Source: an uncultured Acidobacteriia bacterium (GTDB taxonomy: Bacteria; Acidobacteriota; Terriglobia; Bryobacterales; Bryobacteraceae). Taken from it: a stretch of 64,000 nt of DNA. Under the pieces are notes generated by a model. That model was not told the origin of the DNA and did not search any database. It worked only from the letters and a program-made list of their open reading frames with translations. Position 1 is the stretch's first letter. Each line of letters opens with the position of its first letter. Positions 33,377 to 64,000 of this stretch are shown piece by piece. Both the position numbers and the translations under genes were made by a program. The DNA lies in contig CAIRSA010000473.1 of NCBI GenBank assembly GCA_903881085.1, forward strand, positions 1-64,000. The letters run 5' to 3'.

Positions 33377-33421
33377 CATTGCAGTTGCGCGATGGGCAAC
33401 CTGTACCGATTTGTTGAGCCG
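33377..33421 (+). pseudogene. Relic of a PadR regulator
   Basis: HCSCAMGNLYRFVEP is read here (ATG of the A-M at 33392). It equals the start of the PadR domain of the gene at 3787 (CTCAMGNLYRFVEP); the DNA agrees at 35 of 41 bases, mostly with silent third-position changes. Before and after it the frame is broken (a TAA precedes, homology ends after the Pro), so only about 15 codons of a regulator survive. Confidence 0.65.
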
Positions 33422-33493
33422 GCGCGGTGTATCTACAAGTCCGCCGGCCCACGGGGCTGTTCCGAAGACTCTGGCAATTGTAGGATAGAGTCA

Positions 33494-35059: not shown

Positions 35060-35150
35060 GTGGTATTAAAGTGCCCGGCTTTAGGAGGCCAAGCACCTGT
35101 GTCCAGTTGAACCTTTAGCAGCGGCGGATTGTCCAGAATCGCTGGCCTTA

Positions 35151-41483: not shown

Positions 41484-41484
41484 G

Positions 41485-43023: not shown

Positions 43024-43160
43024 GCGGTGGAAACTTCTGTATCATCACCTCCGACCGGGACCGAAGAGTGCGAGAAGAGTGAACTGGTCAGGTGCATCAG
43101 TACCACGCTCGCTTTTCGCAATGCGCCCCCCGTCAGGGATCTTCTGTACTTTTGTTCCAA

Positions 43161-43189
43161 TTGACACACGGTGCTGTTTGATTCATAAT
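43161..43189 (+). promoter_or_regulatory. Sigma-70-like promoter of the receptor at 43282
   Basis: TTGACA at 43161-43166, a 17-base spacer, and CATAAT at 43184-43189, a near-consensus housekeeping promoter. It lies about 93 bases before ATG 43282. No CCAACCG-type ECF element is present here. Confidence 0.6.
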
Positions 43190-43281
43190 CAAGCCACTTA
43201 GTGCATTTCTCAGGGAGAAGTCCGAGCGGATTGCGTCCATGTCATTTTATTCCGGCACACTTCCGGCTTTGGAAGACTATT

Positions 43282-46200: not shown

Positions 46201-46503
46201 ACGCGCACGCTGCAAGCCGACTTCAATACCGCCGCTTTCGCCAGACCGGCAAACTATACCTATGGCAGCGCGGGGCGAAACATTCTGCGTGGCCGGCCAC
46301 AGTTCAACTGGGACTTTTCGGCGCATAAGAACTTTCAGATCGTGGAACGTGTAAGGCTGCAGTTCCGATTTGAAGCGTTCACGCTCACCAATACGCCCCG
46401 CTTTGGGGCTCCCGGCAACGTGTTGGGTACCGCAGCGTTCGGCGTCATCGCCAGTGCCTCCACTCCTCGCAACTTGCAATTCGGCCTGAAACTCATATGG
46501 TAA
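43282..46503 (+). CDS. Oar-like TonB-dependent receptor
   Basis: 1073 residues from ATG 43282 (GGAAG 6 bases upstream). Signal peptide ends SAFAQ; regulatory-like domain (LSGRVTDASGAVVPG...), plug with VDMPLNGRNYLDLALM and a barrel ending FGLKLIW. It has its own sigma-70-like promoter and no coupled downstream gene; a sulfatase relic lies after it on the other strand. Confidence 0.9.
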   Translation: MNKLFFASMLLAASAFAQTAQLSGRVTDASGAVVPGTNLILRNVANGRERQTVTNELGLYSVPLLTPGSYQFRVQHQGFKPIVRDGVNLDIDQRATVDFALELGAATEQIQVSASVSRLNTVEASQGQVIDNQRIVDMPLNGRNYLDLALMSGGAVQPDPGSRIGGFSSGGQRVSQNNYIMDGIDNNSVELAAAGRRAEMVEPSIDAIQEFKVQTNAYSAEFGRGMGAVVNLTIKSGANDVHGTAFEFIRNEVFDAKNFFTPATSAKPPFKRNQYGFSMGGPVVIPHVYNGRNKTFFFGDFERARIRQTSTIANTLPTTKMRSGDFSELSKKLNDPGSSLPFAGNVIPASRFDPVAATLIKLYPAVQSSTLANNFTYLSPQNQDVDKWDLRIDQNAGTKDNFFFRFSTHDSFLPDTPALPAPAYGSGNLDYITEGINTGIGWNHIFTSNLIMSVRGGWNFARFKRNNPASALGHNFNKEFGIPGASYVPDGGFSQVSITGYRALGIGANNPVDRNSQNRQVSGDLSWNHQRHAVKAGVSFIRSQNPIYNIRNTLGTFTFNGAYTGDGAADFLLGQVNQWAWQSPVIVSMRTYNFATYLQDDWKINNRLTVNLGIRYEISPPWYEKYNKMGNFDIDTAPNSPTLVLAANGSHTSRATVSTDYGEVMPRIGLAFKLNNKTVIRSGYGIYYQYMENLGDAEYLIGNAPFAYGVTLTGSSSTPLMKFSTGPASGATDLAKATGLQFSSYQRDPKQAAAHQWNFNIQREFGQNWLFEIAYSGSRGLHLVRRYDGNFSPAGPGNIDAKRVYKSLLIPGTSIVSSPLGPIYSYRANGNSIYDAMVAKIEKRFSKGLTVLGSYTWSKSIGDTCGSAVGGDATGCGYQNIFNLRPERSLDNQDVPHRFVASVLYDLPAGKGRTYMANAPRAVDAVLGGWSLGSIWSASSQVPFSPTVSGNPANTGTYTVVQRPDVVGDPHNGTRTLQADFNTAAFARPANYTYGSAGRNILRGRPQFNWDFSAHKNFQIVERVRLQFRFEAFTLTNTPRFGAPGNVLGTAAFGVIASASTPRNLQFGLKLIW

Positions 46504-47476: not shown

Positions 47477-50400
47477 TCAGAACTGCATCCGTACCGCCCA
47501 CTGCATGATGCGCGGGTCACGCGCCGCCGTGTACTGCCCGAACTGCGAGTTGGTATTGACGCCGGCCGCATTGAACGTCGCCGAGGTGTTCATCGCACTG
47601 AACTGGGTGTGATTGAACGCGTTGAACATCTCCAGCCGGAACTGCATCTGAACGCGCTCCCAGATGGGTATGCCTTTCACCAGTGAGATGTTGAAGTTTT
47701 CTATTCCCGGGCCGCGAATCAGGTTCTTCGCCGGATTACCCAGGGTGCCGACTGCCGGCAGCGCAAAGACTGTCGGATTGAAGGCTTGCAGCGGTCCGTA
47801 CTCGCTGCCCAGTTGATACGGATTTCCGGTGAGGTTGATCTTTGCGGTCACGCTTGGCGAACCGGTAATGTTGGTGGCGTTGGTCTGGCTGTAGGTGACT
47901 GCTGCCGGAGCACCCTTCGAGAATTGTGCCACGCCAAAAAGATGCCAGTCGTTGACGACGGCGCGAACCGGCGCTACGGCCGACTTCCATTTCGGGACAT
48001 CCCAAATCCAGTTAAGGTTCAGTATCTGGGTACGATCGAAGCCTGCGAGGCCATAGTTCCAGGCCCGGAAGATCGAGGCAGGCACTGCGTTGTTCACGGC
48101 TCCGAAGTCGGCATCGACCCAGTCCATGGCTTTCGACCACGTGTAGGCGAGTCCGAACTTGGCTCCCCGGGCGAAGCGGCGGTTGGCCGATACCTGCAGT
48201 GAATGGTAGTTCGAAGTGGCGTCGTTCGCTTTATAGGAAATGGCGCTGTAGCCTTGAATGGGGACGAGAAAAGCATTGGGAAGAGGCGTGCTGGGCAGCA
48301 CCGGGTTCGCGTTGGACGGCAGGAACTGCGCGCCTAGCGGAACCGGTTCCAGGTCCTGTGCCCAAGAGAGATGCCTGCCCTGCGAACCGACATAGCCGGC
48401 GGACACAACCGTGCCCCAGCCGACTTTGCGCTGCACGGTCAGGCTCATATTCATCACCGTTGAAGCTTTCATGTCCTTCTGAAGGGCAACCACGGAGGGC
48501 GGCGAAATGAAACCCTGCGCGGAAGTGAAGGTCGACAACGTGCCGAACTGCACCACCGGCGTTTGCACGATCGGATAGGAGCTGGTGCCCGAAATGTTGG
48601 AGAGCGGCCGGTTGTAGAATACTCCGAAGCCGCCTCGGATGGCAGTCTTGCCGTCGCCGAACGGGTCGTACGCGAAGCCAAACCGGGGAGCCGGCAGCGG
48701 CCCCATATTATTGACCAGAGCACGCGGATAGTTGGGAGTGTTTGCGGCCACCACCATTCCGTTGGTAAGGTTGCCAGAGCCCGGAGCGATGAAGCCGACC
48801 AGAACGGACGAATAGACCTGCCCGGTGACCGGGTTCACGCCAACGCTCTTGCCGCCCACCAGCGCAGGACGGATCAACTGCACCGCCTGGCTGGGATTGT
48901 ACAGACTTGGCGCGAAGCCAGCCGTTTGGTTGCTATCGGTGAAGAACGGCTGGTACCAACTAATCCGTATACCGTAATCGAGGGTCAGTTTCTTCGTTAC
49001 CCGCCACGTGTCCTCGACAAAGGTGTCGAGGCCGTTTGCCTTTGGCGCAGTCACCGGACGGTTCGTCGCTTCGGTGTAGCTGTTAAAGACGCCGATCAAG
49101 GCGTTGGAATATGGATTTCCGGTATTCAGCGGATTATTCGCGTTCGTACCAAAATTAAACGTACCGTTAAAGTTGGCCGAGTTACCCCCGTCGTAGGTAC
49201 GCATGTGTTCGAAGGTGAAGCCTGCCTTAACTGTATGCGACCCGGCAATATAGGTAATGTTGTCGGCGATGTTAGTCAGGTAACGAGTCAGATAATAGGG
49301 AAAGCGGCCGTCGAATGAGATGTTGGGCGGAAGGTTAACGCCGGCAAACGACATGCCGGGCAGAAGATTCAGCGGGTTGCCCGCGGGGCTCAACTGTCCG
49401 GCTTTGAAGCCGTAGGTGGCGCGCTGCAGACCCGCCAGTGCATCCTTCTCGAAGGAATCGGTCGGGCCGTTATCCAGGGCGTACCCGAAGATCAATTGGT
49501 TCACAATCGTAGGCGAGAAGATGTGCGTATAGTGTCCGCTCACCATCTCTCCGGTGGTCTTAGTGATGAGTCCTTTGAACAGCGGGAACCCGATCGTGAG
49601 CCCTGTGACAGCGGCGGAGTTGGCGGGACCGTTATCTGTCTCCCAATTGCCTAGCAGCGTGAAGGAGAAAACATCGGAAGTGCGAGCGTTGAAATCGAGT
49701 TTCAAGGTGGCCAGTTTGACGGGTTCGTTCGTCGTCGCCTGGCTCACGTAGTTATAGGCAGTCGAACCCGATGTGTTCGGCAGGGGAAACACGTTGAGCA
49801 GTGCCCGGCCATTGGGATCAATCCGGCTTGCAGGAATGACGTTTCCTGGAAAGACCTTTCCGGTGTCCGGATCGGTCACATTGACAGTTCCGAAATTGCC
49901 CGAACGCTGCGCCTCCGTGGGCATCGTGATATTGACCGGGTTCCCGGAGACTCTCTTTGGCAGGAACTCCTGGTTCCCAAAAAAGAACAGCTTGTTGTGC
50001 AGCGCCGGCAACTTGCCAGGCACCCAGATGGGACCGCCAATGTTATAGGTCACGGCGTTAAAGCGATTGACCGGCCTTGCAAGTCCCAGCCGGTTATTAA
50101 AAAAGTTGCTGGCATTGAAAAACTCGTTGCGTCCGTAGTACATGCCCATGCCGTGATACTGGAGGGTGCCCGATTTCGTCACCATCTGCACTTCGCTGCC
50201 AGAGAGCCGGCCGTATTCCGCCTGGTAGTTGCTCTGCAGAACCTTGACTTCGGAAATCGATTCCATGCTGGGCATGAACGTGCCATTGGCCGCGCCTCCC
50301 AGGGCCGACATCGTAACGCCATCGACGGCGAAATTATTGGAAGTTGCGCGATTCCCGGAGACGTTGAAGTTGGTCGCGTTGGTGCCGCCGAGGCTGCGGG

Positions 50401-50941
50401 AGCCTGCGCCGACTGGATCCACCACGCCCGGCGCGATGCCCAACAGTGAGGTAACCGTGCGTCCATAGACGGGGAGATCCTCGGTTTGTTCGGCGGTGAT
50501 TGAGGTTGAGTGTTCCGAACTTCCGGTCTGGACGGCCGCCCCCTCAGCCGTAACTGTGATGTGCTGGTCTACGCCACCCAGTTCGAGGGATTGGTTTCCG
50601 AGGGCAAGCCGTTCCGACGGACTCAATTGGATTCCTTTGCGATCCAATGTCTTAAATCCGGAGGCTTTCATTGTGACCGAATACTCGCCGGGCTCGATGC
50701 TGTCAAATACAAATTCGCCGGAACTGGTTGCCTTAACGGTGCGTTGAGAGCCGTTCGTGATGCTGACCAGTTTGATTTCCACCTGCGGAATTGCACTTCC
50801 GCTGGCGTCGGTCACCGAACCGAAGATCGCTCCGGTCGTCGCCTGGCCAAAGACAAGGCCCACACATAGCAGGAGAGCGAGTATTGGGGTAACCGCACAC
50901 TCCAATGAACCGCGGTTGGCACGACGCGAATGGGTCTTCAT
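47477..50941 (-). CDS. Oar-like TonB-dependent receptor
   Basis: 1154 residues from ATG 50941, with AGGAGG 8 bases before it (a TTG at 50947 is the other start). Signal peptide ends LVFGQ; regulatory-like domain; plug region VTSLLGIAPGVVDPVG; barrel ends WAVRMQF. It is transcribed from the minus-strand ECF promoter at 50974-51002 and diverges from the sulfatase at 51085, which has its own copy of the promoter. Confidence 0.9.
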   Translation of the reverse strand: MKTHSRRANRGSLECAVTPILALLLCVGLVFGQATTGAIFGSVTDASGSAIPQVEIKLVSITNGSQRTVKATSSGEFVFDSIEPGEYSVTMKASGFKTLDRKGIQLSPSERLALGNQSLELGGVDQHITVTAEGAAVQTGSSEHSTSITAEQTEDLPVYGRTVTSLLGIAPGVVDPVGAGSRSLGGTNATNFNVSGNRATSNNFAVDGVTMSALGGAANGTFMPSMESISEVKVLQSNYQAEYGRLSGSEVQMVTKSGTLQYHGMGMYYGRNEFFNASNFFNNRLGLARPVNRFNAVTYNIGGPIWVPGKLPALHNKLFFFGNQEFLPKRVSGNPVNITMPTEAQRSGNFGTVNVTDPDTGKVFPGNVIPASRIDPNGRALLNVFPLPNTSGSTAYNYVSQATTNEPVKLATLKLDFNARTSDVFSFTLLGNWETDNGPANSAAVTGLTIGFPLFKGLITKTTGEMVSGHYTHIFSPTIVNQLIFGYALDNGPTDSFEKDALAGLQRATYGFKAGQLSPAGNPLNLLPGMSFAGVNLPPNISFDGRFPYYLTRYLTNIADNITYIAGSHTVKAGFTFEHMRTYDGGNSANFNGTFNFGTNANNPLNTGNPYSNALIGVFNSYTEATNRPVTAPKANGLDTFVEDTWRVTKKLTLDYGIRISWYQPFFTDSNQTAGFAPSLYNPSQAVQLIRPALVGGKSVGVNPVTGQVYSSVLVGFIAPGSGNLTNGMVVAANTPNYPRALVNNMGPLPAPRFGFAYDPFGDGKTAIRGGFGVFYNRPLSNISGTSSYPIVQTPVVQFGTLSTFTSAQGFISPPSVVALQKDMKASTVMNMSLTVQRKVGWGTVVSAGYVGSQGRHLSWAQDLEPVPLGAQFLPSNANPVLPSTPLPNAFLVPIQGYSAISYKANDATSNYHSLQVSANRRFARGAKFGLAYTWSKAMDWVDADFGAVNNAVPASIFRAWNYGLAGFDRTQILNLNWIWDVPKWKSAVAPVRAVVNDWHLFGVAQFSKGAPAAVTYSQTNATNITGSPSVTAKINLTGNPYQLGSEYGPLQAFNPTVFALPAVGTLGNPAKNLIRGPGIENFNISLVKGIPIWERVQMQFRLEMFNAFNHTQFSAMNTSATFNAAGVNTNSQFGQYTAARDPRIMQWAVRMQF

Positions 50942-50973: not shown

Positions 50974-51002
50974 AAGATGCAGGCACTGAACAGTCCGGTT
51001 GG
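50974..51002 (-). promoter_or_regulatory. ECF promoter copy 1, drives the receptor at 47477-50941
   Basis: On the minus strand: CCAACCG (51002-50996), 15 bases, GCATCTT (50980-50974). It lies 33 bases before the receptor ATG. It shares every base of both elements and the spacing with copies at 51038 and 63685. Confidence 0.85.
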
Positions 51003-51037
51003 AAATAGGGCTGCCAAGACAGGTTATCGTAGATTCG

Positions 51038-51066
51038 CCAACCGTTGCACATGAAGAACGCATCTT
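51038..51066 (+). promoter_or_regulatory. ECF promoter copy 2, drives the sulfatase at 51085
   Basis: CCAACCG (51038-51044), 15 bases, GCATCTT (51060-51066). Only 18 bases separate it from ATG 51085, so the leader is very short. Its -35 element is 35 bases from the -35 element of the divergent copy 1. Confidence 0.85.
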
Positions 51067-51084
51067 GATGGTATAAGGTCAACC

Positions 51085-52605
51085 ATGGAAACTCTGAATT
51101 CAGGTGGAATCACCCGCAGATCGCTATTGAGCGGCATTGCGGCCGCTCCAATTGCCGCAACTGCCGAGGCGCAAACACGGCGACGGCCCAATCTGCTGTT
51201 CCTGTTTTCAGACCAGCACTCTTACGACATGATGGGCTGCTCCGGAAACAAGCAGGTGCACACTCCCGTGATGGACCAGTTGTCCTCGGAAGGGGTCCAC
51301 TTCAGTCACTGCTTTTCGACTTCGCCGGTGTGCTCCCCTTATCGTGCGATGTTGCTGTCGGGATTGCATTCTCTGCGTAGCGGAGTTTTCTTCAACGACG
51401 TGACGCTGATTCCAGGCCAGGGGAAGTACTTTGGCGAGTCTCTGCGGGATTCAGGCTATCGCACAGGCTATTTCGGCAAATGGCACATCCTCGGCGGAAA
51501 CCGCGTGCGGCCCATTCCGCCGGGCGAACTGCGCTACGGTTTCGATGGCTCCTTCCTGAGTAATAACTGCACCACCATGTTCGACGCCGCACGCGCCTAT
51601 TACTGGAATCAGAATGGCGAGCGAACGTTGTATGGAGATTGGGAGCCCTACGCGCAGTCGCGCCAGGCGTGCGGCTTTTTGGACCAGCAGCAGGCCGACA
51701 AACCTTTCGCTATGTTCCTCTCCTGGCATCCGCCGCACGACCATGGCAAACGCGATCAGTATTTCGTCTACGACACGCAGCCGGACCTGATGGAGCAATA
51801 CTCGAAATCCGATCCGGAACTGCGCCCGGCCGCGGCGCAACTGGATTCGAGCGAGCGGCGTAAGCAGCAGTGCCGGGATTATATGGCGCAGACCACCGGT
51901 GTCGATCGTGCCCTCGGCATGGTGTTGGACAAACTGAAAGAGAAAGGGCTCGATCGCGACACGATTGTCGTTTACACGTCCGATCATGGTGACTGCCTCG
52001 GTGCCTATGGCTGGCACGCCAGCGCGAAGGACATCCCGCAGGACTGTTCCTCGCGTGTGCCTTTCCTGCTGCGGTATCCGGGAGTGTTGAAGCCTCGCCG
52101 CAGCGATCTGATGATGGGACCCCTTGACCTTATGCCCACCCTGCTCGGACTGATGGGGATTGAACCGCCATCGAGCTGCCAGGGACGCAACCTGGCTCAG
52201 GCGATTTTGAAGGCGGACGACCGCGCAACGGATTCCGTGCCAATGATGATGATTCACAGCGGACCCGAAGAGTATCGCGGTGTCATCACTCGCGACTGGA
52301 CCTTCGCCGCGCAGCGCAGCGACAAGGCGTTCCATCCGGCTATGAACGTACTCTATGACCGGCATGAAGATCCTCATCAGGTTCGAAATCAATTCGCGGA
52401 TAACAAGAAGGTGCGCCGCCAAATGATGGACTTGACCCGCTCGTGGATGAAGCGATTCGACGACCCATTTGTAAGTCATCGGGAGTTGATGGCGTCTGGC
52501 ATTCCTTGGAAATATCCGGATGCGGGTGGTGCGATCAACCGCACTACGCCTTTGGAATGGATCAAGAAGAATCCGATGCCGGCAGCGAAGTTTCGCGAGG
52601 AGTAA
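51085..52605 (+). CDS. Type I sulfatase, Tat-exported
   Basis: 506 residues. Signal ITRRSLLSGIAA; SDQHSYDMMGCSG; formylglycine site CSPYR with Cys83; GKWHILGG; TSDHGDCLGAYGW. The DHGD form and the CSPYR site suggest a subfamily distinct from the CTPSR/CAPSR ones. It is driven by ECF promoter copy 2, and the next receptor, 52661, starts 55 bases after its stop from copy 3. Confidence 0.92.
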   Translation: METLNSGGITRRSLLSGIAAAPIAATAEAQTRRRPNLLFLFSDQHSYDMMGCSGNKQVHTPVMDQLSSEGVHFSHCFSTSPVCSPYRAMLLSGLHSLRSGVFFNDVTLIPGQGKYFGESLRDSGYRTGYFGKWHILGGNRVRPIPPGELRYGFDGSFLSNNCTTMFDAARAYYWNQNGERTLYGDWEPYAQSRQACGFLDQQQADKPFAMFLSWHPPHDHGKRDQYFVYDTQPDLMEQYSKSDPELRPAAAQLDSSERRKQQCRDYMAQTTGVDRALGMVLDKLKEKGLDRDTIVVYTSDHGDCLGAYGWHASAKDIPQDCSSRVPFLLRYPGVLKPRRSDLMMGPLDLMPTLLGLMGIEPPSSCQGRNLAQAILKADDRATDSVPMMMIHSGPEEYRGVITRDWTFAAQRSDKAFHPAMNVLYDRHEDPHQVRNQFADNKKVRRQMMDLTRSWMKRFDDPFVSHRELMASGIPWKYPDAGGAINRTTPLEWIKKNPMPAAKFREE

Positions 52606-52612
52606 GATTTCG

Positions 52613-52641
52613 CCAACCGCCGCGCCAGAGACGTGCATCCT
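52613..52641 (+). promoter_or_regulatory. ECF promoter copy 3, drives the receptor at 52661
   Basis: CCAACCG (52613-52619), 15 bases, GCATCCT (52635-52641), 20 bases before ATG 52661 and starting 7 bases after the sulfatase stop. Confidence 0.83.
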
Positions 52642-52660
52642 AACAGTGCAAGGGGTAACT

Positions 52661-55600
52661 ATGCACGTCTCCGTTCGACACTTGTCCATCCTACTTATAT
52701 GCGCCGCCGCGCTGGCAGTCAGCGCCTCGCCGGCAGCAGCGCAATCACTTTTCGGGTCCATCCTGGGAACCATTACCGACAACACCCAGGCCGTGGTCCC
52801 TCAAGCCACCGTAAAGATTCTCAGCCTTGAAACCGGCGCGGTACGCACCGTTACCGCCGATACGGCTGGAGACTATCAGGCTCCCGCGCTCCCGGTCGGC
52901 AACTACGAAATATCCTGCGAACTGCCGGGTTTTAAACGTGCTATCGTCTCCGGCGTGAAACTCGAAGTCGATCAACGCGCCCGAATCGATATTCGCTTGG
53001 AAGTGGGCTCGATTGACCAGAAAGTGCAGGTGACGGCCGCGGCAGCGCTGCTGGAAACCGATACGGCAAGCCAGGGCACTGTCGTCAACAGTCAGACCAT
53101 TACCGATCTACCCCTGAATGGCAGGGACTTCCAGCAGTTGGCGACGCTCGGCCCAGGTGTCGTCGCGCCAGTCGCAGGCGCCACCAATGCCTCCTACTTC
53201 AGCGTGGCGGGCACTCGCGGCATCAGCAACAGCTTCATGATGGACGGCGCTACCAACACCAATTCCAACGCCAACGTTACTTTCATCAGTCCCTCCATCG
53301 ATCTTATCGAGGAGTTCAAAATCCAGCGCAATACGTTCAGCGCCGAGTTCGGGCGTGGCGCTTCCCAGATCAATGTGGTCACAAAGTCCGGTTCCAATAC
53401 CATTCATGGCTCGCTGTTTGAGTTTTTCCGCAACGATGATCTCAATGCCAGGAGTTTCTTCGATCCCGCCAATAAACCCCAGCTTCGGCTCAACCAGTTC
53501 GGCGGAACCGTAGGCGGTCCCGTCGTGCTGCCAAAAGTTTACAACGGGCGTAATAGGACTTTCTGGCTGTTCAACTATGAAGGCAAGCGCCAACGCGTGC
53601 CTAACACCAGGAACTCCGCGCTCCCCACCCAGGCCCAATTGGGTGGCGACCTCTCCACGGTTGCCCAGGCAAGCATCAAGAACCCGCTCGCCGGCGGAGC
53701 GGTCTTCCCGGGCAAACAGATCCCCGCTTCGTTGATCGACCCTACCAGCAAGGTGTTTTCGGGTTACATTCCGGCGGTTACTGCACTGCCAGGGGTCCTA
53801 GGCCCGGGCATCAACCTGGTGACGCCCATCAGCACCAGGGTAAGTTTCGATCAGTTCACTCTCAAATTCGATCAGCAGATTAGTAGTAACAACCGTGCCT
53901 TCCTGCGCTATACCAAGAACACAGCGGCCAACATCGGTCCTGGCTTGGTGCCGCAGTACCAAACAGCCGCGCCTACCTTGGATCTGAGCATTGTGGCTGG
54001 GCTTAACACGATCATCCGACCCACCTTGATCAATGAGTTTCGCGCCAGCTTTTCGCGCCATACGCTGCATCAGGGGCCGGACTTCGCGAATGCTTCTAAC
54101 TTCGCCGATCAGCTGGGCATTCAGAACACTCTCAGTCACCAACCGCAATTCAACTCACTCCCCACGGTCGCCATCACTGGCTACACATCCGTCGGTGGAT
54201 CGGCACTGATTACGCAGCGTGGAAACACCTTTTCGTATCTCGACAATCTGACCTGGCTGCTTGGCAACCATACTGTCAAAACCGGCTTCGATATTCGCCG
54301 AGCGATGCTCGACATCCGCAATATCGGCGCTACCCAAGGCACCTTCAACTTCACTGGAACTTTAGCCGGCAATGCCATCGCCGATTACCTGCTGGGCGTT
54401 CCGGCTTCGGCCAGCGCGGCCGCGCCGCCCGGACCGGACGGCGTGAACAGCAGCAACGTGTGGCAAGGCTTCGTCCAGGATGATTGGAAGGTCAGGAGTG
54501 ATCTGACCTTGAATATCGGCGTGCGCTACGAATATCAGTCGCCCTTTGAGAACGATCGCGGGCAGCGTTCCATATTCGATCCCACCTTCCCTGGCGGCCG
54601 CCTCATCTACTCCAATTTGGCTTCTTACTACGTCCCCGGAAAAGGTCTGATCTCGAGCCCTACTGGCAAGCCGCTGGCCACTGACGGCCTGGTTCCAGGC
54701 GAACACAAGAATCTCGCCCCGCGCTTTGGCTTTGCCTGGCGGCCTCTGAAGAGCGATAAGTGGGTGGTGCGTGGCAGTTACGGCATCTTCTATGAAGCGC
54801 AGAATGCTAACAACGATATCCTCTTCGGCAGCTTTAACTATCCTTTCCAACTTAGTTACTCGCTGACCAACCCGGTGACAAACCCAACCTATATCTGGTC
54901 GAAGAATGTATTTCCCGCAGGCGGCGCCAGCGGCACGGTCACCTTCAGTTCACTGAGTCCCAAGATGCCGCTCGGCTACTTACAACAATGGAGCTTTAAC
55001 TTACAACGCCAGCTTCGGCCCAACCTTGTTTTCGAGGTGGGCTACCTGGGTTCCAAGGGAACCAAGCTCGACTGGCGCGAACAGCCCAATCAGGCTGTTC
55101 CGGAAGACCCCGCCAATCCGACAACGGTCGTCAGCCGGCAGCCGTTTCCACTCTGGGGTGCGGGCGCTGGCATCATCTCCCGAGACGGGTTCTCAACCTA
55201 TCACGCCATGGCTGCGCGTTTGGAGCGGAAGTTCTCCCACGGGCTACAATTCCTCGCCTCCTACACCTTCTCCCACTCCATCGACAATTCCTCGTTTGCC
55301 GGCAACATCGGATCACAGCCCGCGACGCCTGAGAACAATTCCAACAGGAAGGGCGAAAAAGGAAGCTCGTATTTCGACGTGCCCCAACGTTTTGTTCTGA
55401 GCCACGTGTGGAACATCCCATTCAATCCCGGTCATGGTGTCGTCAAATCGTTATTGGGTGGTTGGCAGCTAACGGGAATTACGCAGATGCAGAGTGGCAA
55501 TCCGTGGTCGATTCTGATTTCGACAGACACCGCGGTTGTAGGAACCACCAGCCAGAGGGCACAGCTGGTGGGCGAGGTCTATCCCGCGGGGTTCGTCTCG

Positions 55601-55903
55601 GGCGGCCCTTCACGCCTGGCGTTTAACAAAGCCGCGTTTGCCCTGCCGGCCAGCGGGACGTTCGGCAACACCGGCCGCAACATCGTACGGACCGCAGGCA
55701 TGAGTAATTGGGACATGGGTATAAACAAGTCCTTCCAACTCAAAGAGCGTGTTCGCTTACAATTCCGTGGCGAAATCTTCAACATCTGGAATCACACGCA
55801 GTACCTGCAATTTGATAATACGTTCCAGAACGTCGGCTTCGGAACCTGGACGAGCGCGCGCGACCCTCGCATCGTTCAGTTTGCATTGAAGCTGCTTTAT
55901 TAG
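52661..55903 (+). CDS. Oar-like TonB-dependent receptor
   Basis: 1080 residues from ATG 52661 (AAGGGG upstream; a longer in-frame start would lie inside the sulfatase gene). Signal ends SPAAAQ; regulatory-like domain; plug with ITDLPLNGRDFQQLATLGPG; barrel ends FALKLLY. ECF copy 3 lies before it, copy 4 after its stop. Confidence 0.9.
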   Translation: MHVSVRHLSILLICAAALAVSASPAAAQSLFGSILGTITDNTQAVVPQATVKILSLETGAVRTVTADTAGDYQAPALPVGNYEISCELPGFKRAIVSGVKLEVDQRARIDIRLEVGSIDQKVQVTAAAALLETDTASQGTVVNSQTITDLPLNGRDFQQLATLGPGVVAPVAGATNASYFSVAGTRGISNSFMMDGATNTNSNANVTFISPSIDLIEEFKIQRNTFSAEFGRGASQINVVTKSGSNTIHGSLFEFFRNDDLNARSFFDPANKPQLRLNQFGGTVGGPVVLPKVYNGRNRTFWLFNYEGKRQRVPNTRNSALPTQAQLGGDLSTVAQASIKNPLAGGAVFPGKQIPASLIDPTSKVFSGYIPAVTALPGVLGPGINLVTPISTRVSFDQFTLKFDQQISSNNRAFLRYTKNTAANIGPGLVPQYQTAAPTLDLSIVAGLNTIIRPTLINEFRASFSRHTLHQGPDFANASNFADQLGIQNTLSHQPQFNSLPTVAITGYTSVGGSALITQRGNTFSYLDNLTWLLGNHTVKTGFDIRRAMLDIRNIGATQGTFNFTGTLAGNAIADYLLGVPASASAAAPPGPDGVNSSNVWQGFVQDDWKVRSDLTLNIGVRYEYQSPFENDRGQRSIFDPTFPGGRLIYSNLASYYVPGKGLISSPTGKPLATDGLVPGEHKNLAPRFGFAWRPLKSDKWVVRGSYGIFYEAQNANNDILFGSFNYPFQLSYSLTNPVTNPTYIWSKNVFPAGGASGTVTFSSLSPKMPLGYLQQWSFNLQRQLRPNLVFEVGYLGSKGTKLDWREQPNQAVPEDPANPTTVVSRQPFPLWGAGAGIISRDGFSTYHAMAARLERKFSHGLQFLASYTFSHSIDNSSFAGNIGSQPATPENNSNRKGEKGSSYFDVPQRFVLSHVWNIPFNPGHGVVKSLLGGWQLTGITQMQSGNPWSILISTDTAVVGTTSQRAQLVGEVYPAGFVSGGPSRLAFNKAAFALPASGTFGNTGRNIVRTAGMSNWDMGINKSFQLKERVRLQFRGEIFNIWNHTQYLQFDNTFQNVGFGTWTSARDPRIVQFALKLLY

Positions 55904-55947
55904 GAATGCATCCAGCGAAACATGGCGTCGCAGGATGGTGGAAAGTC

Positions 55948-55976
55948 CCAACCGTTGGTACATGAGCACGCATCCT
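55948..55976 (+). promoter_or_regulatory. ECF promoter copy 4, drives the sigma operon itself
   Basis: CCAACCG (55948-55954), 15 bases, GCATCCT (55970-55976), about 41 bases before the sigma-factor ATG 56017. Its spacer also resembles that of copy 2 (TTG, ACATGA and AC at matching places). Confidence 0.85.
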
Positions 55977-56016
55977 TAGATTTAGATAGACTCGGTAGTC
56001 CCGGCCAAGATGCCGG

Positions 56017-56586
56017 ATGCGAATGAGTACGGCAAGCGACGAAAAAGAGCGTCAGGCGATCGCCGAGTTTCTGTCTGAGCGGACAGAGGAGCGGTTTTGT
56101 GCGCTTTTCGATGCTTTTTACGGGAGATTGTGCCGCTATTTCTCGGCGCGTGACGTAGATAGTTACATTGCCGAGGAACTTGCGGAGAACGTCATGTTTC
56201 AGGTCTACCGGCATGTATCTCAATTGCGGGATGGTATGTCGTTTCACGGTTGGCTGTTCCAAATTGCGCGCAACGAGTATCTGCAGTATCGCCGAAAATC
56301 GGCGACAGCTCTTCCGACCGTGTCATTCGAGCCGTTGGCGGGGCGCCTGGCGGAAACGCTGGATTCGGGGATTCGCCAGCAAGAGGAAGGACCATTCCGG
56401 GAATGGATGACGCACATGGATGAAACAGAGCGTGAAATCCTGATTCTGCGGTTTATGGAAGACCTGGATTATCACGAAATCTCGGATGTGCTGGGAATAC
56501 CGGTTGGAACGATTAAATGGAAAGTGTTCAACGCCAAAACGAAGCTGGCTGCCGTGGTAAGAAGAAAGACCGCTAAATCGAGATGA
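56017..56586 (+). CDS. ECF sigma factor, likely regulon controller
   Basis: 189 residues (a second ATG at 56023 is possible). Region 2: AELAENVMFQVYRHV after ARDVDSYIAEE, then FHGWLFQIARNEYLQYRRK; region 4: EREILILRFMEDLDYHEISDVLGIPVGTIKWKVFNAKTKL. Directly before it is a CCAACCG-N15-GCATC(T/C)T promoter, repeated before four more transcription units nearby, so it probably recognises that sequence and also autoregulates. The stop overlaps the anti-sigma start (ATGA). Confidence 0.9.
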   Translation: MRMSTASDEKERQAIAEFLSERTEERFCALFDAFYGRLCRYFSARDVDSYIAEELAENVMFQVYRHVSQLRDGMSFHGWLFQIARNEYLQYRRKSATALPTVSFEPLAGRLAETLDSGIRQQEEGPFREWMTHMDETEREILILRFMEDLDYHEISDVLGIPVGTIKWKVFNAKTKLAAVVRRKTAKSR

Positions 56587-57089
56587 AGCACCCCATCGAC
56601 TACGACGATTGGCTCGGCTATCTGGATGGCGACCTGGACCAGGTCGGGACGGCGCGAGTCCGAGAACACATCGGGCATTGCAGCGAATGCCGCTCAACCT
56701 GGGATGAACTGCTGGAAGCGACGGCCGCAATGCGTTCAGCGGCCCGCGAATTCGCAGCAGTGCATGCGGTTGGTGCGAACGAAGTTCGATCCGGTAGGGA
56801 ACGGGTGCTGGCGCGCATCCGGACACTGGAATCAAGCCCCAGCTTGGAATCGGTCGCGGCAGGCGAGCTTACCGTGGGACGCCTGCGTAAGTTGCAGCTC
56901 GTGGTGGCGCCGGTATGCGGCGCGCGGACTGCGTTCCGACTGATTGTGGCAGCGGTTGGGCGGACGCCGGTTCCGCAAAGTGCGGCCGCGTGGCTGGTTT
57001 TTCTGGAGCAGTTGACTGACCTGACCTCTGCGCTATGCGGGCGGTCCACGGCGCGACTGATATGGGAGATTGGCAATTCATTGCCGTAG
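56583..57089 (+). CDS. Zinc-finger anti-sigma factor
   Basis: 168 residues. N-terminal zinc-finger motif HIGHCSECRS (H-x3-C-x2-C, near residues 30-37) of the anti-sigma type after YLDGDLDQVGTARVREH. A helix-rich segment of about 130 residues follows with no confident membrane helix, so it is probably cytoplasmic or peripheral, unlike FecR. ATG 56583 overlaps the sigma stop. It should hold the sigma factor inactive; how the glycan signal reaches it is unknown, but the membrane protein at 57097 is a candidate partner. Confidence 0.82.
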   Translation: MKHPIDYDDWLGYLDGDLDQVGTARVREHIGHCSECRSTWDELLEATAAMRSAAREFAAVHAVGANEVRSGRERVLARIRTLESSPSLESVAAGELTVGRLRKLQLVVAPVCGARTAFRLIVAAVGRTPVPQSAAAWLVFLEQLTDLTSALCGRSTARLIWEIGNSLP

Positions 57090-57096
57090 ACACTCA

Positions 57097-57921
57097 ATGC
57101 TGGCACGGTGGATCAATCCGGCTTTTTTAGGAATCGTTGCGGCGTCCGCCATTGCTGCAAATCTGGCAATGCCGGAACTGCGGCCGTACATTCACTCCGC
57201 GGTGTATCTGCTGGCCGGGTTACTCTGCGTGGAGATTGCACGTGACTACGACCACAAACTCATGCGGTTTTCCTGGTTGCTGTTTTCAGGCGAGGCATTT
57301 CTACTTGCGTTGCACTTTCCGTTAGCAACGCCGGCGGCGACTGCCTGGCTAGGCGCCGCGCAGCGCGATCTTATCGCGCTGGCGATGGTCCAGATGGGCC
57401 TCACTGCTCTGCTCGCCGGAATGTTGGTCACGTGGTGGCAACTGCGGCAGTTCGGGTTGGGATTTCATGCGCGGGGTGTGGATTGGGCAGCGGTTGGGGC
57501 GATTCTGACGGGAATGGCCGTCTTCTTTGGACTCTCCTGGCATGGCGGATGGATGTATCCGATGATGGCCGGAGCCCGCGTGCTTTTATTCCTGGCCGCG
57601 GCGGTGAGCATCTTACTGAACAGGTTTTGCCAACAGATGGGCGGTGGTGAGATCGCGCGCGTAATCCGTTTCATCATCGCTTATGTTGCCACCCGATGCG
57701 TCATGAATCTGGTGTTTGCGGTGAACAAGACCTGGGCTCCGGTGGCGCTGGAACTGGAAGATTTGCTGAACGTCGTTTTCCCGTGGATTTTTCTCTTCGG
57801 AGTCACGTTGCGCGCGCGGGTGGCGGTGCGGGCCGAAGCGGAACTGGCCCGTGTGCCAAAGCCTGCAGCGTGGAATCCCAAGCCCTCCACTGGTTGGGAT
57901 GGCGGTCGGCCTTCTTATTAG
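57097..57921 (+). CDS. Multi-pass membrane protein of unknown function
   Basis: 274 residues with about eight membrane segments (near 6-25, 31-50, 54-75, 89-112, 129-150, 155-176, 188-208, 225-243) and a Pro/Gly-rich cytoplasmic tail. No transporter or enzyme motif is visible. Start ATG 57097 lies 7 bases after the anti-sigma stop, so it is in the sigma operon and could act as sensor or partner for the anti-sigma factor (inference). Confidence 0.65.
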   Translation: MLARWINPAFLGIVAASAIAANLAMPELRPYIHSAVYLLAGLLCVEIARDYDHKLMRFSWLLFSGEAFLLALHFPLATPAATAWLGAAQRDLIALAMVQMGLTALLAGMLVTWWQLRQFGLGFHARGVDWAAVGAILTGMAVFFGLSWHGGWMYPMMAGARVLLFLAAAVSILLNRFCQQMGGGEIARVIRFIIAYVATRCVMNLVFAVNKTWAPVALELEDLLNVVFPWIFLFGVTLRARVAVRAEAELARVPKPAAWNPKPSTGWDGGRPSY

Positions 57922-57958
57922 ACGTAAATGTGCAATTTTGTTAACAGGAGCATATTCC

Positions 57959-60900
57959 ATGATTCGTATTTTCCTAACTTTGCTGGCATTTGGCGCAATG
58001 TTAAGCGCCCAGACAAATACGGCGGTGATTCGCGGCGTAGTATCGGATCCGGGCGGTGCCAATGTCGCCAGCGCCAAGATCGCAGCAAAGAACAACCAGA
58101 CGGCGATTGTTTATTCCGCGGTGACCAATGATACCGGTCTTTACCTGCTTCCCGACGCGCCCGCGGGTAATTACACAATCACGGTGGAGCATCCCGGCTT
58201 CCGAGGCCATGTGCGGAAATCTGTGACGGTATCGACAGGAGCGACCCTCGCGCTCGACGTCAAACTGGAACTGGGCGAACTGAGCCAGTCGGTGACGGTG
58301 AGCGGTGAAGTGGCGATGGTGCAGAGTTCGACTTCAGGCGTCGACCAGTTGATCGAGTCAAAAAGTATCGCCGATATCCCGTTGGGTGACCGGCGGACGA
58401 TGAACGTAGTGCAATTGAGCGGAGCGGCGGTTTTCGCCGGTTACGACAGTGGCCAGAAGCCGAATTTCTCGCTTGCCGGCGGGCGTGCGCAAAGCCAGAT
58501 GTTCTGGATCGATGGCGCCAGCGGGCAGAACATGCGGCTGGGAATTGGGCAGATGGACACCGATCCACCGGTGGAACTCATTCAGGAAATCAAGGTCCTG
58601 AGCAACAACTACTCGGCGGAGTTCGGAGGCTCCAACGGCGGAGTCATTATTGAAACCACCAAGAGCGGAACGAACGAATTCCACGGCAGCGCGCTTGAGT
58701 ATTTGCGCAATGACCTGATGGACGCGCCGGGCTTCTTCGCGCCGATCGTAAACGGCGATAAGAGCAAGCCGAAACTGCGCTATAACTTGTTCGGCGGAAC
58801 CATCGGAGGTCCGATCATTAAGAACAAAACGTTCTTCTTCTTCGACTATGAAGGCAGCCGGCGCAGCACAGGTTTCACCTCGACGCTTACCGTACCCACG
58901 CTGCTACAGCGCACGGGCGATTTCTCGAAGACCACCACAGCTGCGGGTGCGCTGGTGGCTATCTACGATCCAAGCACTACCGTTGCGTCGGGTGCGACAT
59001 CTACGCGGCAGCTGTATTCGGGAAACATCATACCAACCGCGAAGCTGGATCCGGTCGCCCTCAAAATTCTCAGCTATTATCCGCTTCCCAACCGCACCCC
59101 GGACAATGCCACCGGCGCAAACAACTTCCGTGCCAACGGTGCGAACACCGTGGTTCACGATTTCTGGTCAATCAAGGGCGACCACAACTTCGGCCCTAAA
59201 GACCGCCTTACCGGCCGCTACATGTTCAACCGCGACAATACCAACATTCTTAGCGTGTTTCCCGATAAGGGGGCTGATACGAATGCTTTCAATATCGCCA
59301 ACCAGAAGAGCGCCCTGGGCGACTGGATCCACACCATCAACCCGACAACGGTGAATGAATTTCGCGTCAACATCGCACGGCGCGTTGCGCACGCGTTGAC
59401 GGCCGGGGTGGGTGGCGATTATCCCACCAAACTCGGCCTGTAGGGCGTTTCGAACAATGCGTTTCCGAATATCGCGCCCACCGGCTTCGCCGCGTTGGGT
59501 ACAACTAACCAGGAGCGCCAACAGTACCCCATCGATCAGCAGCAGTTTGTCGAAAACATTTCTGCCGTGCGTGGCCGCCACTCGCTTAAGGCGGGCTTTG
59601 AATATCGTCGCTCGCGCAATCACGAAATCAATCTCCAAACTGCTTCTGGCCAATTCGCATTTGCCACGACGCCGACCGGCCAGCCGGGCAATGCCGCCAC
59701 CGGCAACGGACTGGCGTCCATGCTGATCGGCTTTCCTACTGCATTCACCGCACTGCAGACCGACGAACTCGATCGCCACAGCTACTATCTGGCGGCGTTC
59801 TTTCAGGACGATTGGACGATCAGCCGCAATCTGACGTTGAATCTGGGAGTGCGCTGGGAAACCGACACACCCATGACCGACACGAAGAGCAAAATGAATG
59901 GATTCGATCAGACAGCGACCAATCCCGTAAGTGGTACGCCGGGCGTGGTGAAATTCATGGGCCTGAACGGCTTCCGTTCGCAGCCCTACGATGGCGATTA
60001 CAATAACTTCGGCCCGCGTCTGGGATTCGCCTATAAGCTGTTCGGGAGTGAGCGCACCGTGCTGCGCGGCGGCTTCGGAGCCTTTTTCGCACATCCGTTC
60101 GATGCCGGCGTGCCCAACGCCGTCGCCCTCGGCTTCAGCCAGTCTGTAAGCATCAATACGCCGGATAACGGTATAACCGCTCCGTTCTATCTGCGCAATG
60201 GTGTTCCGGGCGCCACCGCTACCCGGCCTGCTTTGAACGACTCGTTCGGCGCCGTGGCGGTGGGGCAGAACCCAAGCACCGCGGTGACTTTCTTTGAAAC
60301 CAACCGCCGCACCGGTTACTCCGAGCAATTCAATCTGGGAATTCAGCGGCAGCTGACGAAGACACTGGTGTGGGAAGTGAGCGGCCTCGGCAATCTGGCG
60401 CGCAAACTTCCAAGCGCGAACCTCTCGATCAACCAAATCCGCCCGGAGATTTTGAATGCGGCGCACCAATCGCAACGCGATCGTCCCTTCCCGCAGTTTT
60501 CGGGGGTGACAATTCAAGGCCCGACGCTGGGTGTTTCCAGTTATCTGGCCGGTATGACGCGCGTTGAGAAACGTTATTCGAATGGCTTCAATGTGAACGC
60601 CAGTTACACGTTCTCGAAGTTCCTCGAAAATACCAACGATCCGGGGACGACGATCGGGCGCGACGCCGGGCCCTACTCAAACCTGTATAACCGGCGTGCG
60701 GATTATGGTCCTTCTGCTAACGACGTAAGGAACCGGGTCTCTTTCAGTTCGGTGTACGAACTGCCATTTGGTCCCGGTAAGCCGCATCTGACCAAGAGCG
60801 TTTTGGGGCAGATCATTGGCGGCTGGACGCTAGGCAACGTAACGGTGGTGCAGAGTGGGCCGCCGATGTCGGTCACCACGCAGAATAACAATACCTTCGC

Positions 60901-61260
60901 CCAGTCAGCGGGCTCGCAGCGCCCGATGTTTCGCGCGATCCGAATCTGCCCTCGGACCAGCGCAGCGTTCTCAAGTGGTTTGATACGGCCGCTTTCACAC
61001 AACCGGCGAACTTCACCTTCGGAAGTTCCGGTCGTAATATTGTACGCGCGCCGGGCCTGGTGAACTTCGACTTCTCGCTGATGCGTAATTTCAAGTTTCA
61101 CGAGCGCTACAACCTGCAGATGCGCGGCGAATCGTTCAATGCATTTAACCACACCAACTTTTCAGCTCCTGGCGGCACCTTCGGCGGAGCGGGTTTTGGC
61201 ACAATCAGCGCATCGGGACCGGCGCGGCAGTTGCAGGTCGGAATGCGGTTTGCGTTTTAA
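57959..61260 (+). pseudogene. Oar-like TonB-dependent receptor, amber codon plus frameshift
   Basis: Starts at ATG 57959 (AGGAG 9 bases before). Signal peptide, regulatory-like domain and plug (IADIPLGDRRTMNVVQLSG) are intact. TAG at 59441-59443 interrupts the frame after PTKLGL; the same frame then continues (GVSNNAFPNIAPTGF...) to near 60920, where one missing base (60920-60925) shifts it. The other frame goes on with DVSRDPNLP and DQRSVLKWFDTAAF to NFDFSLMRNFKFHERYNLQ, ending GMRFAF and TAA at 61260. Two independent breaks make a non-functional receptor likely unless both are read errors. It is fourth in the sigma operon. Confidence 0.85.
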
Positions 61261-61272
61261 CGGGGAGTTGCT

Positions 61273-62670
61273 ATGAATTCATCGCAAATAACGCGGCGGT
61301 CTTTGGCCGCCGCGCTGGGCGCTCCGCTTGTTCCTGCGGCGGCTGAAACGCATCCGAATGTGCTGCTGCTCCATTGTCACGATCTGGGGCAGCATCTGCA
61401 CTGCTATGGCGTAGATGGCGTGAATTCGCCGCACCTCGATCAACTGGCTGCAGAGGGCGTGCTTTTTGAGAACCACTTCTGTTCGGCGCCACAATGCAGC
61501 CCGTCGCGGGCCTCGATCTTCACCGGACGGTATCCACATTCGAACGGTGTGATGGGCCTGACGCACGCCGATTTCGCCTGGGATTTGCACGAAGGGGAGC
61601 GGCACCTGGGGCAGATTCTGGGCGATGCGGGTTACGCCACTGCGTGCGTGGGTGTGATCCACGAAACGCGCTTGGGCGCCAAGCGTTGCGGTTTTGAAAG
61701 CTACGTCAATGCTTCGATGGCGGTGCCCATGGCCGACGCAGCGATTGCGCGCATGAAGGAGTTTGCGAAATCGCCGGGCAAGCCGTTTTATCTGCAGGCC
61801 GGTTGTATTGAGCCGCACCGTCTGCCGAGGCGCGACCGGGACGCGGATCAGGATTTTCTCGGCGTTAATCTGCAGCCTGATACCTCACGCGGCGTGACCG
61901 TGCCTCCGTACCTGAAAGACACGCCTGGCACGCGCGCGGAACTGGCCGAGTTGCAGGGCGCGGTGCGGCACATGGATGCGCAGATGGGGCGCGTGATTAC
62001 CGCGGTTCGCGAACTGGGGCTCGAAAAGAATACGCTGGTGATCTTCACCACCGACCACGGTATCGCCATGCCGCGTTCGAAGTGCTCAGTCTATGAGCCT
62101 GGTCTGCGCACGGCCTTCATCCTTCGCTACCCCGGACGGAACGGGTGGCACGGAGGAGTGCGCCATAAGCATCTGGTGTCGAACATCGATTGCGTTCCCA
62201 CGGTGCTCGACTTGGCTGGCGTGGCGGTTCCGGCGGCAGTGCAAGGCCGGTCGCTCGCGCCGTTGCTCAACGGGCAGCTTTACACGGCGCGCGACCGGAT
62301 ATTCGGCGAGATCACGTATCACGATTACTACGATCCTCGGCGCAGCATCCGCACTGCGACGCATAAGCTGATCGTCAATTTTTCCAGTGCCCCGGCGTTC
62401 ATGGATCCTTCGCAATCGTGGCGCCCCAGGGCGGATACGATTGTACCGGCCAATCACGCGCTGGCCTATCATGCGCCCTATGAACTGTACGATCTGACGC
62501 GCGATCCGTGGGAGCAGCACGACCTGTCGCGCGATGCGGCGTCGGCAAGTGTGTTGAATCAACTGCGACTGCAACTGGTCGAGCACATGAGGGCAACCGG
62601 CGATCCGATATTGAAGGGCGCGGTGACAGGCCCGCTCCATCAGCGCTCGCAGGCCTGGCTGTTGGGGTAG
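61273..62670 (+). CDS. Type I sulfatase, Tat-exported
   Basis: 465 residues from ATG 61273 (GGGGAG before it). Signal ITRRSLAAALGAP; HCHDLGQHLHCYG replaces the usual DD-x-G-x-x-D, so the first metal residues are altered; formylglycine site CSPSR with Cys75; the GKWHLG motif is replaced (VGVIHETRLGAKRCGF); TTDHGIAMP. It resembles heparan-N-sulfatase-like enzymes. Gene 5 in the sigma operon, 12 bases after the broken receptor. Confidence 0.88.
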   Translation: MNSSQITRRSLAAALGAPLVPAAAETHPNVLLLHCHDLGQHLHCYGVDGVNSPHLDQLAAEGVLFENHFCSAPQCSPSRASIFTGRYPHSNGVMGLTHADFAWDLHEGERHLGQILGDAGYATACVGVIHETRLGAKRCGFESYVNASMAVPMADAAIARMKEFAKSPGKPFYLQAGCIEPHRLPRRDRDADQDFLGVNLQPDTSRGVTVPPYLKDTPGTRAELAELQGAVRHMDAQMGRVITAVRELGLEKNTLVIFTTDHGIAMPRSKCSVYEPGLRTAFILRYPGRNGWHGGVRHKHLVSNIDCVPTVLDLAGVAVPAAVQGRSLAPLLNGQLYTARDRIFGEITYHDYYDPRRSIRTATHKLIVNFSSAPAFMDPSQSWRPRADTIVPANHALAYHAPYELYDLTRDPWEQHDLSRDAASASVLNQLRLQLVEHMRATGDPILKGAVTGPLHQRSQAWLLG

Positions 62671-62675
62671 TTGAA

Positions 62676-63683
62676 ATGACTTATACACGATTCGTATTCA
62701 TGCTCCTGGCCGCATGCCCGATTGCCCCGGCCGCTGACACTTACACCAATCCGGTGGGCAACAAGCCTGTGGTGATCGGTGATCCTTTTGTTCTCCAGCA
62801 TGCCGGAAAATACTACTTGTTCGGAACGAACGCGCCGGATGGATTCCGCGTCTCCGTTTCCACAGACCTCGTGCATTGGACTGACGCCGGTTACGCCTGG
62901 CGTAAGACCGCCGATTCCTGGTCCGATCCCCCATACTGGGCGCCCGAAGTGAAGTATTACCAGGGCAAGTTTTACATGACATACAGCGGCAGGGTACGTG
63001 GGTCGAAACCGGCAAGGTTGCTGACAGCCCTAGCCGTGAGCGATCGCCCCGAAGGCCCCTACAAGGACCTGCACGCCCCGTGGTTCGACCCGGGGTACTC
63101 CGTGATTGACGCAGATATCTTTGTCGATACCGATGGAACGCCGTACCTGTATTTCAGCCGTAACGGTTCGCAGGATGGTTATTCCTACGGAATTGTCTAC
63201 GGGGTAAAACTGACTCGAGACCTCGCAAAACTTGTGGGCGAACCAGTCAAGCTGCTTGAGGCCAGCCAACCATGGGAGCGCATCAACTGGGCGGACAATC
63301 GCTGTAATGAAGGGCCGACCGTACTCAAACATAACGGAAGGTACCTCATGACTTACTCGGCCAATCACACTGGGCGTCCGGGTTATGGCATCGGCGTCGC
63401 TTCGTCGGACAATCCGCTTGGGCCGTGGGTAAAAAACAAAGCAAATCCGATTCTGGCCAGTCACCTCGATATTGGCGTTTCATCGCCTGGCCACAACTCC
63501 ATCACGCTTTCGCCCGATGGCACGGAGATGTTCATCGTGTATCACACGCATGCCGACCCCAAGAATCCGGCAGGCGATCGCGTAATGAACATCGACCGGA
63601 TGGTTTTCGATGGCGATGGACTGCGCGTTATAGGACCTACGCGAACGCCCCAACCAATGCCATCGGGTACCCCGGTAAAATAG
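62676..63683 (+). CDS. Glycoside hydrolase family 43 enzyme
   Basis: 335 residues from ATG 62676, 5 bases after the sulfatase stop. Signal peptide ends near PAAD. The five-bladed propeller carries the GH43 triad: base Asp36 (VIGDPFV), pKa-modulating Asp145 (SVIDADIF) and acid Glu212 (NEGPTV). Known family activities are on arabinose, xylose or galactose linkages. With the sulfatase it fits removal of sulfate and side sugars from one polysaccharide. Last gene of the sigma operon. Confidence 0.9.
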   Translation: MTYTRFVFMLLAACPIAPAADTYTNPVGNKPVVIGDPFVLQHAGKYYLFGTNAPDGFRVSVSTDLVHWTDAGYAWRKTADSWSDPPYWAPEVKYYQGKFYMTYSGRVRGSKPARLLTALAVSDRPEGPYKDLHAPWFDPGYSVIDADIFVDTDGTPYLYFSRNGSQDGYSYGIVYGVKLTRDLAKLVGEPVKLLEASQPWERINWADNRCNEGPTVLKHNGRYLMTYSANHTGRPGYGIGVASSDNPLGPWVKNKANPILASHLDIGVSSPGHNSITLSPDGTEMFIVYHTHADPKNPAGDRVMNIDRMVFDGDGLRVIGPTRTPQPMPSGTPVK

Positions 63684-63684
63684 C

Positions 63685-63713
63685 CCAACCGTTAGGCAAG
63701 GCGCCTGCATCTT
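63685..63713 (+). promoter_or_regulatory. ECF promoter copy 5, drives the receptor at 63755
   Basis: CCAACCG (63685-63691), 15 bases, GCATCTT (63707-63713), starting one base after the GH43 stop and 41 bases before ATG 63755. Confidence 0.85.
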
Positions 63714-63754: not shown

Positions 63755-64000
63755 ATGACCAAGAATGTCTGGCGCGCATGTACTGTCGCTGCCCTGCTGG
63801 CCTCCATTTGCCTGGCCCAGCGCGATCGCGGAGTCATCACGGGAAACGTGACCGACTCGACCGGCGCGGTGCTGGCCAATGCTCAATTGAAGGTGATCCA
63901 GGTGGAAACCAACTCCACACTGCAATCACACACCTCTGACGCGGGAGCTTATACTGTGCCGAACCTCGCGATCGGAGCTTACCGCATCGAAGTCGAGGCC
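63755..64000 (+). CDS. Oar-like TonB-dependent receptor, N-terminal part
   Basis: 82 codons from ATG 63755 (GAGGAG upstream) to the window edge. Signal peptide ends near CLAQ, followed by a carboxypeptidase-regulatory-like domain (VITGNVTDSTGAVLANAQL...). Fifth unit under the CCAACCG/GCATC promoter and possibly the functional replacement for the broken receptor at 57959. Confidence 0.8.
   Translation, partial: MTKNVWRACTVAALLASICLAQRDRGVITGNVTDSTGAVLANAQLKVIQVETNSTLQSHTSDAGAYTVPNLAIGAYRIEVEA

Follow-up and report, generated by a model that had tools for sequence, protein, structure and literature searches.

The stretch of DNA analysed here, the window, comprises 64,000 nucleotides and corresponds to positions 1–64000 of contig G000:C473, so that window and contig coordinates coincide. 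From 47,477 onward it carries genes for TonB-type outer-membrane receptors, sulfatases and an ECF sigma factor, with the last receptor gene running past the window's edge:

47477–50941, minus strand: receptor A, an Oar/TonB-type outer-membrane receptor (Pfam: CarboxypepD_reg, Plug, OMP_b-brl_4)
51085–52605, plus strand: sulfatase A (Pfam PF00884)
52661–55903, plus strand: receptor B (Pfam: CarboxypepD_reg, Plug, OMP_b-brl_4)
56017–56586, plus strand: ECF sigma factor, 189 aa
56583–57089, plus strand: anti-sigma factor of the zf-HC2 type (Pfam), 168 aa
57097–57921, plus strand: ORF6, a conserved multi-pass membrane protein, 274 aa
57966–61150 (approximate limits), plus strand: receptor D, TonB-type, broken, directly downstream of the sigma operon and with no element of its own
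61273–62670, plus strand: sulfatase B (Pfam PF00884), no element of its own
62508–63683, plus strand: reading frame of a GH43 glycoside hydrolase (Pfam), no element of its own
63755–64000, plus strand, continuing to contig position 67333: receptor C (Pfam)

The GH43 frame overlaps sulfatase B, and its true start probably lies near or after 62670. Receptor D is interrupted by an in-frame TAG and by a frameshift beyond it, which reflect either a decaying gene or assembly errors. After receptor C come PSD1/DUF1501 and enolase-type genes; farther along the contig lie a gene for a 220-aa protein of no known function, read on the minus strand and succeeded by another sulfatase gene, and sulfatase C on the plus strand.

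Several of these genes are preceded by a bipartite element, CCAACCG-N15-GCATC(T/C)T, of which the following exact copies were found (gaps are counted from the end of the downstream box, the putative -10 box, to the ATG):

50974–51002, minus strand: element 1 (CCAACCG-N15-GCATCTT), 32 bases before receptor A
51038–51066, plus strand: element 2, 18 bases before sulfatase A and divergent from element 1
52613–52641, plus strand: element 3, 19 bases before receptor B
55948–55976, plus strand: element 4, 40 bases before the ECF sigma gene
63685–63713, plus strand: element 5, 41 bases before receptor C
77630, minus strand, beyond the window: 30 bases before the gene for the 220-aa protein
77676, plus strand, beyond the window: 10 bases before the ATG of sulfatase C
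81042–81070, minus strand, beyond the window: no credible gene ahead

The first-pass annotation had described five copies, each 18–41 bases from a gene. All five were recovered at the same positions and on the same strands, with measured gaps of 32, 18, 19, 40 and 41 bases; the count was nevertheless incomplete, as three more copies lie past the window's edge and the genome total is eight. None would be expected in the 64-kb window from 100 dinucleotide shuffles. The window holds 31 CCAACCG strings, and GCATC follows at any spacer of 12–20 bases in only five of them, each time with a spacer of exactly 15; the other 26 have none, as had been proposed. The suggestion that the spacers are mostly unrelated was likewise borne out by a mean pairwise identity of 0.29 among the eight sites of this genome.

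We then scanned the whole genome (11.88 Mb in 588 contigs). All eight exact matches to the element fall on this one contig, in the span from 50974 to 81070. As a control we used the reversed pattern, which gave no strict match; about 0.24 strict matches would be expected genome-wide from composition, and the chance of eight random matches falling within one such span is about 5e-18. Seven of the eight sites lie 10–41 bases upstream of a gene, these being three TonB-type receptors, two sulfatases, the ECF sigma operon and the gene of no known function. Allowing two mismatches raised the number of genome matches to 263 versus 172 in the reversed control, so a scan of this kind is swamped by background and conclusions can be drawn from exact matches only. 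Loosening the pattern to CCAACC-N17-CATC(C/T)T yielded four extra matches in this genome; the three examined (all but the one on contig C557) lie inside genes, and the four are read as background. For the strict element, a spread over coding regions was not seen.

The element-bearing units are thus receptor A, sulfatase A, receptor B, the operon of sigma factor, anti-sigma factor and ORF6, receptor C with the PSD1/DUF1501 and enolase-type genes behind it, the gene for the 220-aa protein with the sulfatase gene that succeeds it, and sulfatase C. The downstream genes in these units may be co-transcribed with the first, and receptor D, sulfatase B and GH43 perhaps belong to the transcript of the sigma operon. 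A further block at 33392–46503 encodes four sulfatases and two receptors and contains no copy of the element, and the enzyme genes from 82160 onward also lack it. Hence, the regulon corresponds to the block of about 47.5–81 kb that includes the sigma gene, and a second, differently controlled sulfatase cluster abuts it. The original description of a sulfatase/receptor regulon therefore holds for the cluster but not as a general statement, as many receptors and sulfatases of the same contig, such as those at 33392–46503, have no site. Two further genes of the contig are split over overlapping reading frames, a Reg_prop/LuxR-type regulator at 81135–82147 and a TonB-type receptor at 91027–95881, which suggests further broken genes or errors.

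The sigma factor matches Sigma70_r2 and Sigma70_r4/r4_2, and these regions only, above the Pfam cut-offs and NCBIfam TIGR02937 above its cut-off; its best relative in the PDB is E. coli sigma-E. Among the other sequences of its own genome 27 match it at E ≤ 0.001, all at 30% identity or less, so it has no close paralogue. The start of the zf-HC2 gene (56583) lies inside the end of the sigma gene (stop at 56586), an arrangement that suggests co-transcription of the two. The anti-sigma factor contains the zinc-finger motif HIGHCSEC and a conserved C-terminal domain and is predicted to be soluble. Its NCBIfam matches were to zinc-finger type anti-sigma models alone, and weak. The fold search with its structural model (pLDDT 74.7, weaker than the ORF6 model) returned nothing significant; a local match to the RsiW zinc finger, over 45 residues, ranked 14. 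ORF6 matches no Pfam or NCBIfam family. It contains several hydrophobic helices, and the AlphaFold2 model (pLDDT 84.8) is a helical bundle with 7–8 long helices. Its best Foldseek match had an E value of 0.038, with weak matches to seven-helix proteins, and the best VIA-align matches were seven-helix receptors with a Z score of 12.1, where helical bundles become informative from about 13. As this score does not rise above noise, no family is claimed for ORF6, neither a GPCR-like nor a rhodopsin-like 7TM receptor.

To determine how the element is distributed we scanned 257 genomes of the order, the present one included. Close orthologues of the sigma factor are found in only two others, G222 (MAG SZAS-9, JAFDVU010000033; 71% identical) and G020 (AlinenLipids_bin-6195, CAIXXM010000129; 68%), both labelled Acidobacteria; all others are at most 46% identical, and no further close sigma factor was found in 396 genomes drawn from the phylum. 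Across the 257 genomes the strict element gave scattered matches near the control rate except in G222, G020 and the present genome, and matches linked to a receptor/sulfatase/sigma cluster occurred only where a close sigma orthologue was present. In all three genomes the element precedes the sigma gene, the overlap of the sigma and anti-sigma genes is kept, the sigma-4 helix reads PVGTIKWKVFNAK, a sequence not kept by the more remote sigma factors in the alignment, and the ORF6 proteins are 67–70% identical.

The sites in G222 precede a receptor gene and a sulfatase gene that diverge from each other, as well as the sigma gene, where the variant ACATCTT is found. G020 has sites ahead of its sigma gene, one receptor gene, a sulfatase gene (variant CCAACCA/ACATCCT), an alpha-rhamnosidase gene (variant TCATCCT) and a second sulfatase gene; the last of these is located on contig C59, immediately following ORF6. 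C59 appears to continue C129 of that genome, since each of the two contigs carries part of the anti-sigma reading frame. The receptor and both sulfatases among the G020 targets are orthologous to genes described here: receptor B is 81% identical and carries the same element, sulfatase A is 75% identical and carries the element variant, and sulfatase C is 85% identical. For the G222 targets, the best matches in the present genome reach no more than about 33% (receptor) and 28% (sulfatase) identity, and they are not orthologues. As these different targets nonetheless carry the element, the element follows the sigma factor. Conversely, six receptor-B homologues (49–62% identical) from genomes without a close sigma factor lack the upstream element. 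In G149, a broken receptor B, sulfatase A (83%) and sulfatase C (~60%) lie in a row (locus L140, G149:C75, 4865–11082), with neither a close sigma factor nor the element. A broken piece of ORF6 is found in G148, of the same genus as G149, at locus L141 (G148:C95, 18086–18447), again with no close sigma factor. The cluster survives in broken form in this other genus.

Combining the three genomes gives a set of 16 sites (eight from this genome, three from G222 and the remainder from G020). CCAACC is present in 16 of 16, the following G in 15, then come 15 bases, a G in 13, CATC in 16, a C or T, and a T in 16. Spacer identity across the set is about 0.27, and 15 of the sites face a gene start within about 50 bases. 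The best explanation of this pattern is that CCAACC(G) is the -35 box and (G)CATC(C/T)T the -10 box recognised by the sigma factor encoded at 56017–56586. The boxes are spaced as is usual for E. coli sigma-E promoters. We consider it very probable that the elements are promoters of this sigma factor and that they define an autoregulated regulon restricted to the cluster. The self-controlling ECF factor with its receptors and sulfatases, put forward in the first-pass annotation, is also the reading that the confinement of the matches to this cluster, and their co-occurrence elsewhere with a close sigma orthologue, support.

In the set of ECF factors studied early, the hallmarks are AAC in the -35 box, CGT in the -10 box, a co-transcribed anti-sigma factor and positive autoregulation (PMC8103513). 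The CGT core characterises that early-studied subset and is not required in the later classification. Here the AAC core is present in every site, while CGT is replaced by CATC in every site. The promoter type had been described as different from the well-known GGAAC/GTC pattern; a departure is seen in the -10 box, but the -35 core is ordinary for ECF factors, and the promoter is therefore less unusual than was implied. Several observations do count against the promoter reading: the missing CGT hallmark, the lack of a credible gene at 81042–81070, the mere 10 bases that 77676 leaves to an ATG, the presence of the close sigma family in just three genomes, and the fact that G222 has just three sites. 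With so short a distance (77676–77715), a promoter at sulfatase C would need a nearly leaderless transcript; the spacing at the G020 orthologue is equally tight.

A different possibility is that a separate activator or repressor binds the element as its operator. Two half-boxes at a fixed spacing could take a dimer, and a LuxR-type regulator remnant lies on the same contig (81135–82147). However, the boxes are asymmetric, 15 of the 16 sites point to a gene start within about 50 bases, the presence of the element tracks the ECF sigma factor while the target genes change, and no other regulator is common to all three loci in the regions read. We regard an operator as improbable. Less probable again is that another ECF sigma factor of the genome reads the sites and the neighbouring one is incidental. 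Candidates for such a role are offered by the 27 further matching sequences, but none exceeds 30% identity; moreover, the sites surround this sigma gene, its own promoter included, in three genomes, and genomes with only distant relatives have no sites linked to such a cluster. The least credible alternative, that the elements are copies left by a recent local promoter duplication with boxes under no selection, can draw on the similar leaders of the 77630 and 81042 sites, which align with the start codon included (score 32 versus 29 for the best of 200 shuffles), but spacers and flanks are otherwise unrelated (identity 0.29 in the genome and 0.27 over the 16 sites) and the same boxes are kept in genomes whose sigma proteins are ~70% identical. 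That leader similarity does suggest that the 81042–81070 site itself arose as a truncated copy of the 77630 leader.

The promoter reading places the cluster within a known kind of architecture, the autoregulated ECF regulon. As in the SigW/RsiW and RpoE/ChrR types, a two-domain sigma factor is followed by an overlapping gene for an HxxxCxxC zinc-finger anti-sigma factor, and an element with a -35 AAC stands before the operon itself; unlike those systems, the -10 box has CATC rather than CGT, the anti-sigma factor seems to be soluble with a separate multi-pass membrane protein beside it, and the targets are receptors and sulfatases. In Bacteroides, control of polysaccharide utilization loci involves a two-domain membrane anti-sigma factor whose periplasmic part touches a SusC-like porin (PMC3878776), and the likeness to these systems lies in an ECF sigma gene with TonB-type receptor and sulfatase genes as neighbours, presumably induced by glycans. 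The present system differs in its zf-HC2 anti-sigma factor, its Oar-like receptors and its phylum; among the cluster proteins scanned (a few small frames left out) no SusD family was found, so that no SusC/SusD pair was seen. FecI/FecR/FecA likewise place outer-membrane receptor genes under a neighbouring ECF sigma factor, and FecI-like systems are an exception to ECF autoregulation (PMC8103513). Here the sigma gene has its own element, the anti-sigma factor matches zf-HC2 and no FecR-type anti-sigma factor was found by Pfam, and the receptors consist of CarboxypepD_reg, Plug and OMP_b-brl_4, with no N-terminal STN signalling domain detected.

Knowledge of these families suggests how the regulon may work. 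The zinc-finger anti-sigma factor (56583–57089) would hold the sigma factor until a signal tied to a sulfated glycan, possibly received via ORF6, frees it. The freed sigma factor would then transcribe its own operon, giving positive feedback, together with the receptor and sulfatase units around it, and no other genes of the genome. The receptors would import released oligosaccharides and the sulfatases would desulfate them, and the regulon thus probably serves the use of sulfated glycans. ORF6, an uncharacterised membrane protein, is a possible signal input.

The authors of a study of Bacteroides regulons noted that ECF-controlled promoters are challenging to predict without start-site data (PMC3878776). 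In this soil-type acidobacterium a complete regulon, with its promoter and boundaries, can be read from the DNA, and nature provides the controls, as target genes have been swapped and the sigma factor is absent from some relatives. The case supplies a defined candidate pair of sigma factor and promoter with a variant -10 box. Acidobacteriota carry many ECF sigma factors and TonB-type receptors, yet a partial search of the literature found no acidobacterial regulon of this type in the papers searched.

Related sigma/anti-sigma/ORF6 trios, with sigma factors ~34–41% identical to the present one, occur in G146, G018, G020 (contig C83), G060 and G225. In G060, G225 and G020:C83, at least, the trio adjoins a receptor-like frame, recognised from its CarboxypepD_reg-type start sequence only. 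It is conceivable, though we hold it only tentatively, that these three proteins form a distinct signalling module of Acidobacteriota: a seven-helix membrane protein would sense the signal and release the sigma factor from its soluble anti-sigma factor, and each copy would have its own promoter code, used otherwise by none but the receptor and enzyme genes next to it. A de novo search for pairs of words in the regions of the distant trios gave no clear repeated element. Direct comparison of the sequences upstream of sigma and receptor genes found nothing in G018 and G020:C83 and suggestive module-specific pairs in G060 and G225, a lead to the idea that each trio may have its own promoter code. 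In G060 the pair is CCAACA-N15-GCAACT, present upstream of both the sigma and the receptor gene, though further copies of it elsewhere are as frequent as background. The pair in G225, GCAAACAAA-N14-GATC, is common to the sigma and receptor genes, which are divergent there; it occurs twice in that genome, both times within the region between these genes (locus L126, G225:C251, 4561–4639).
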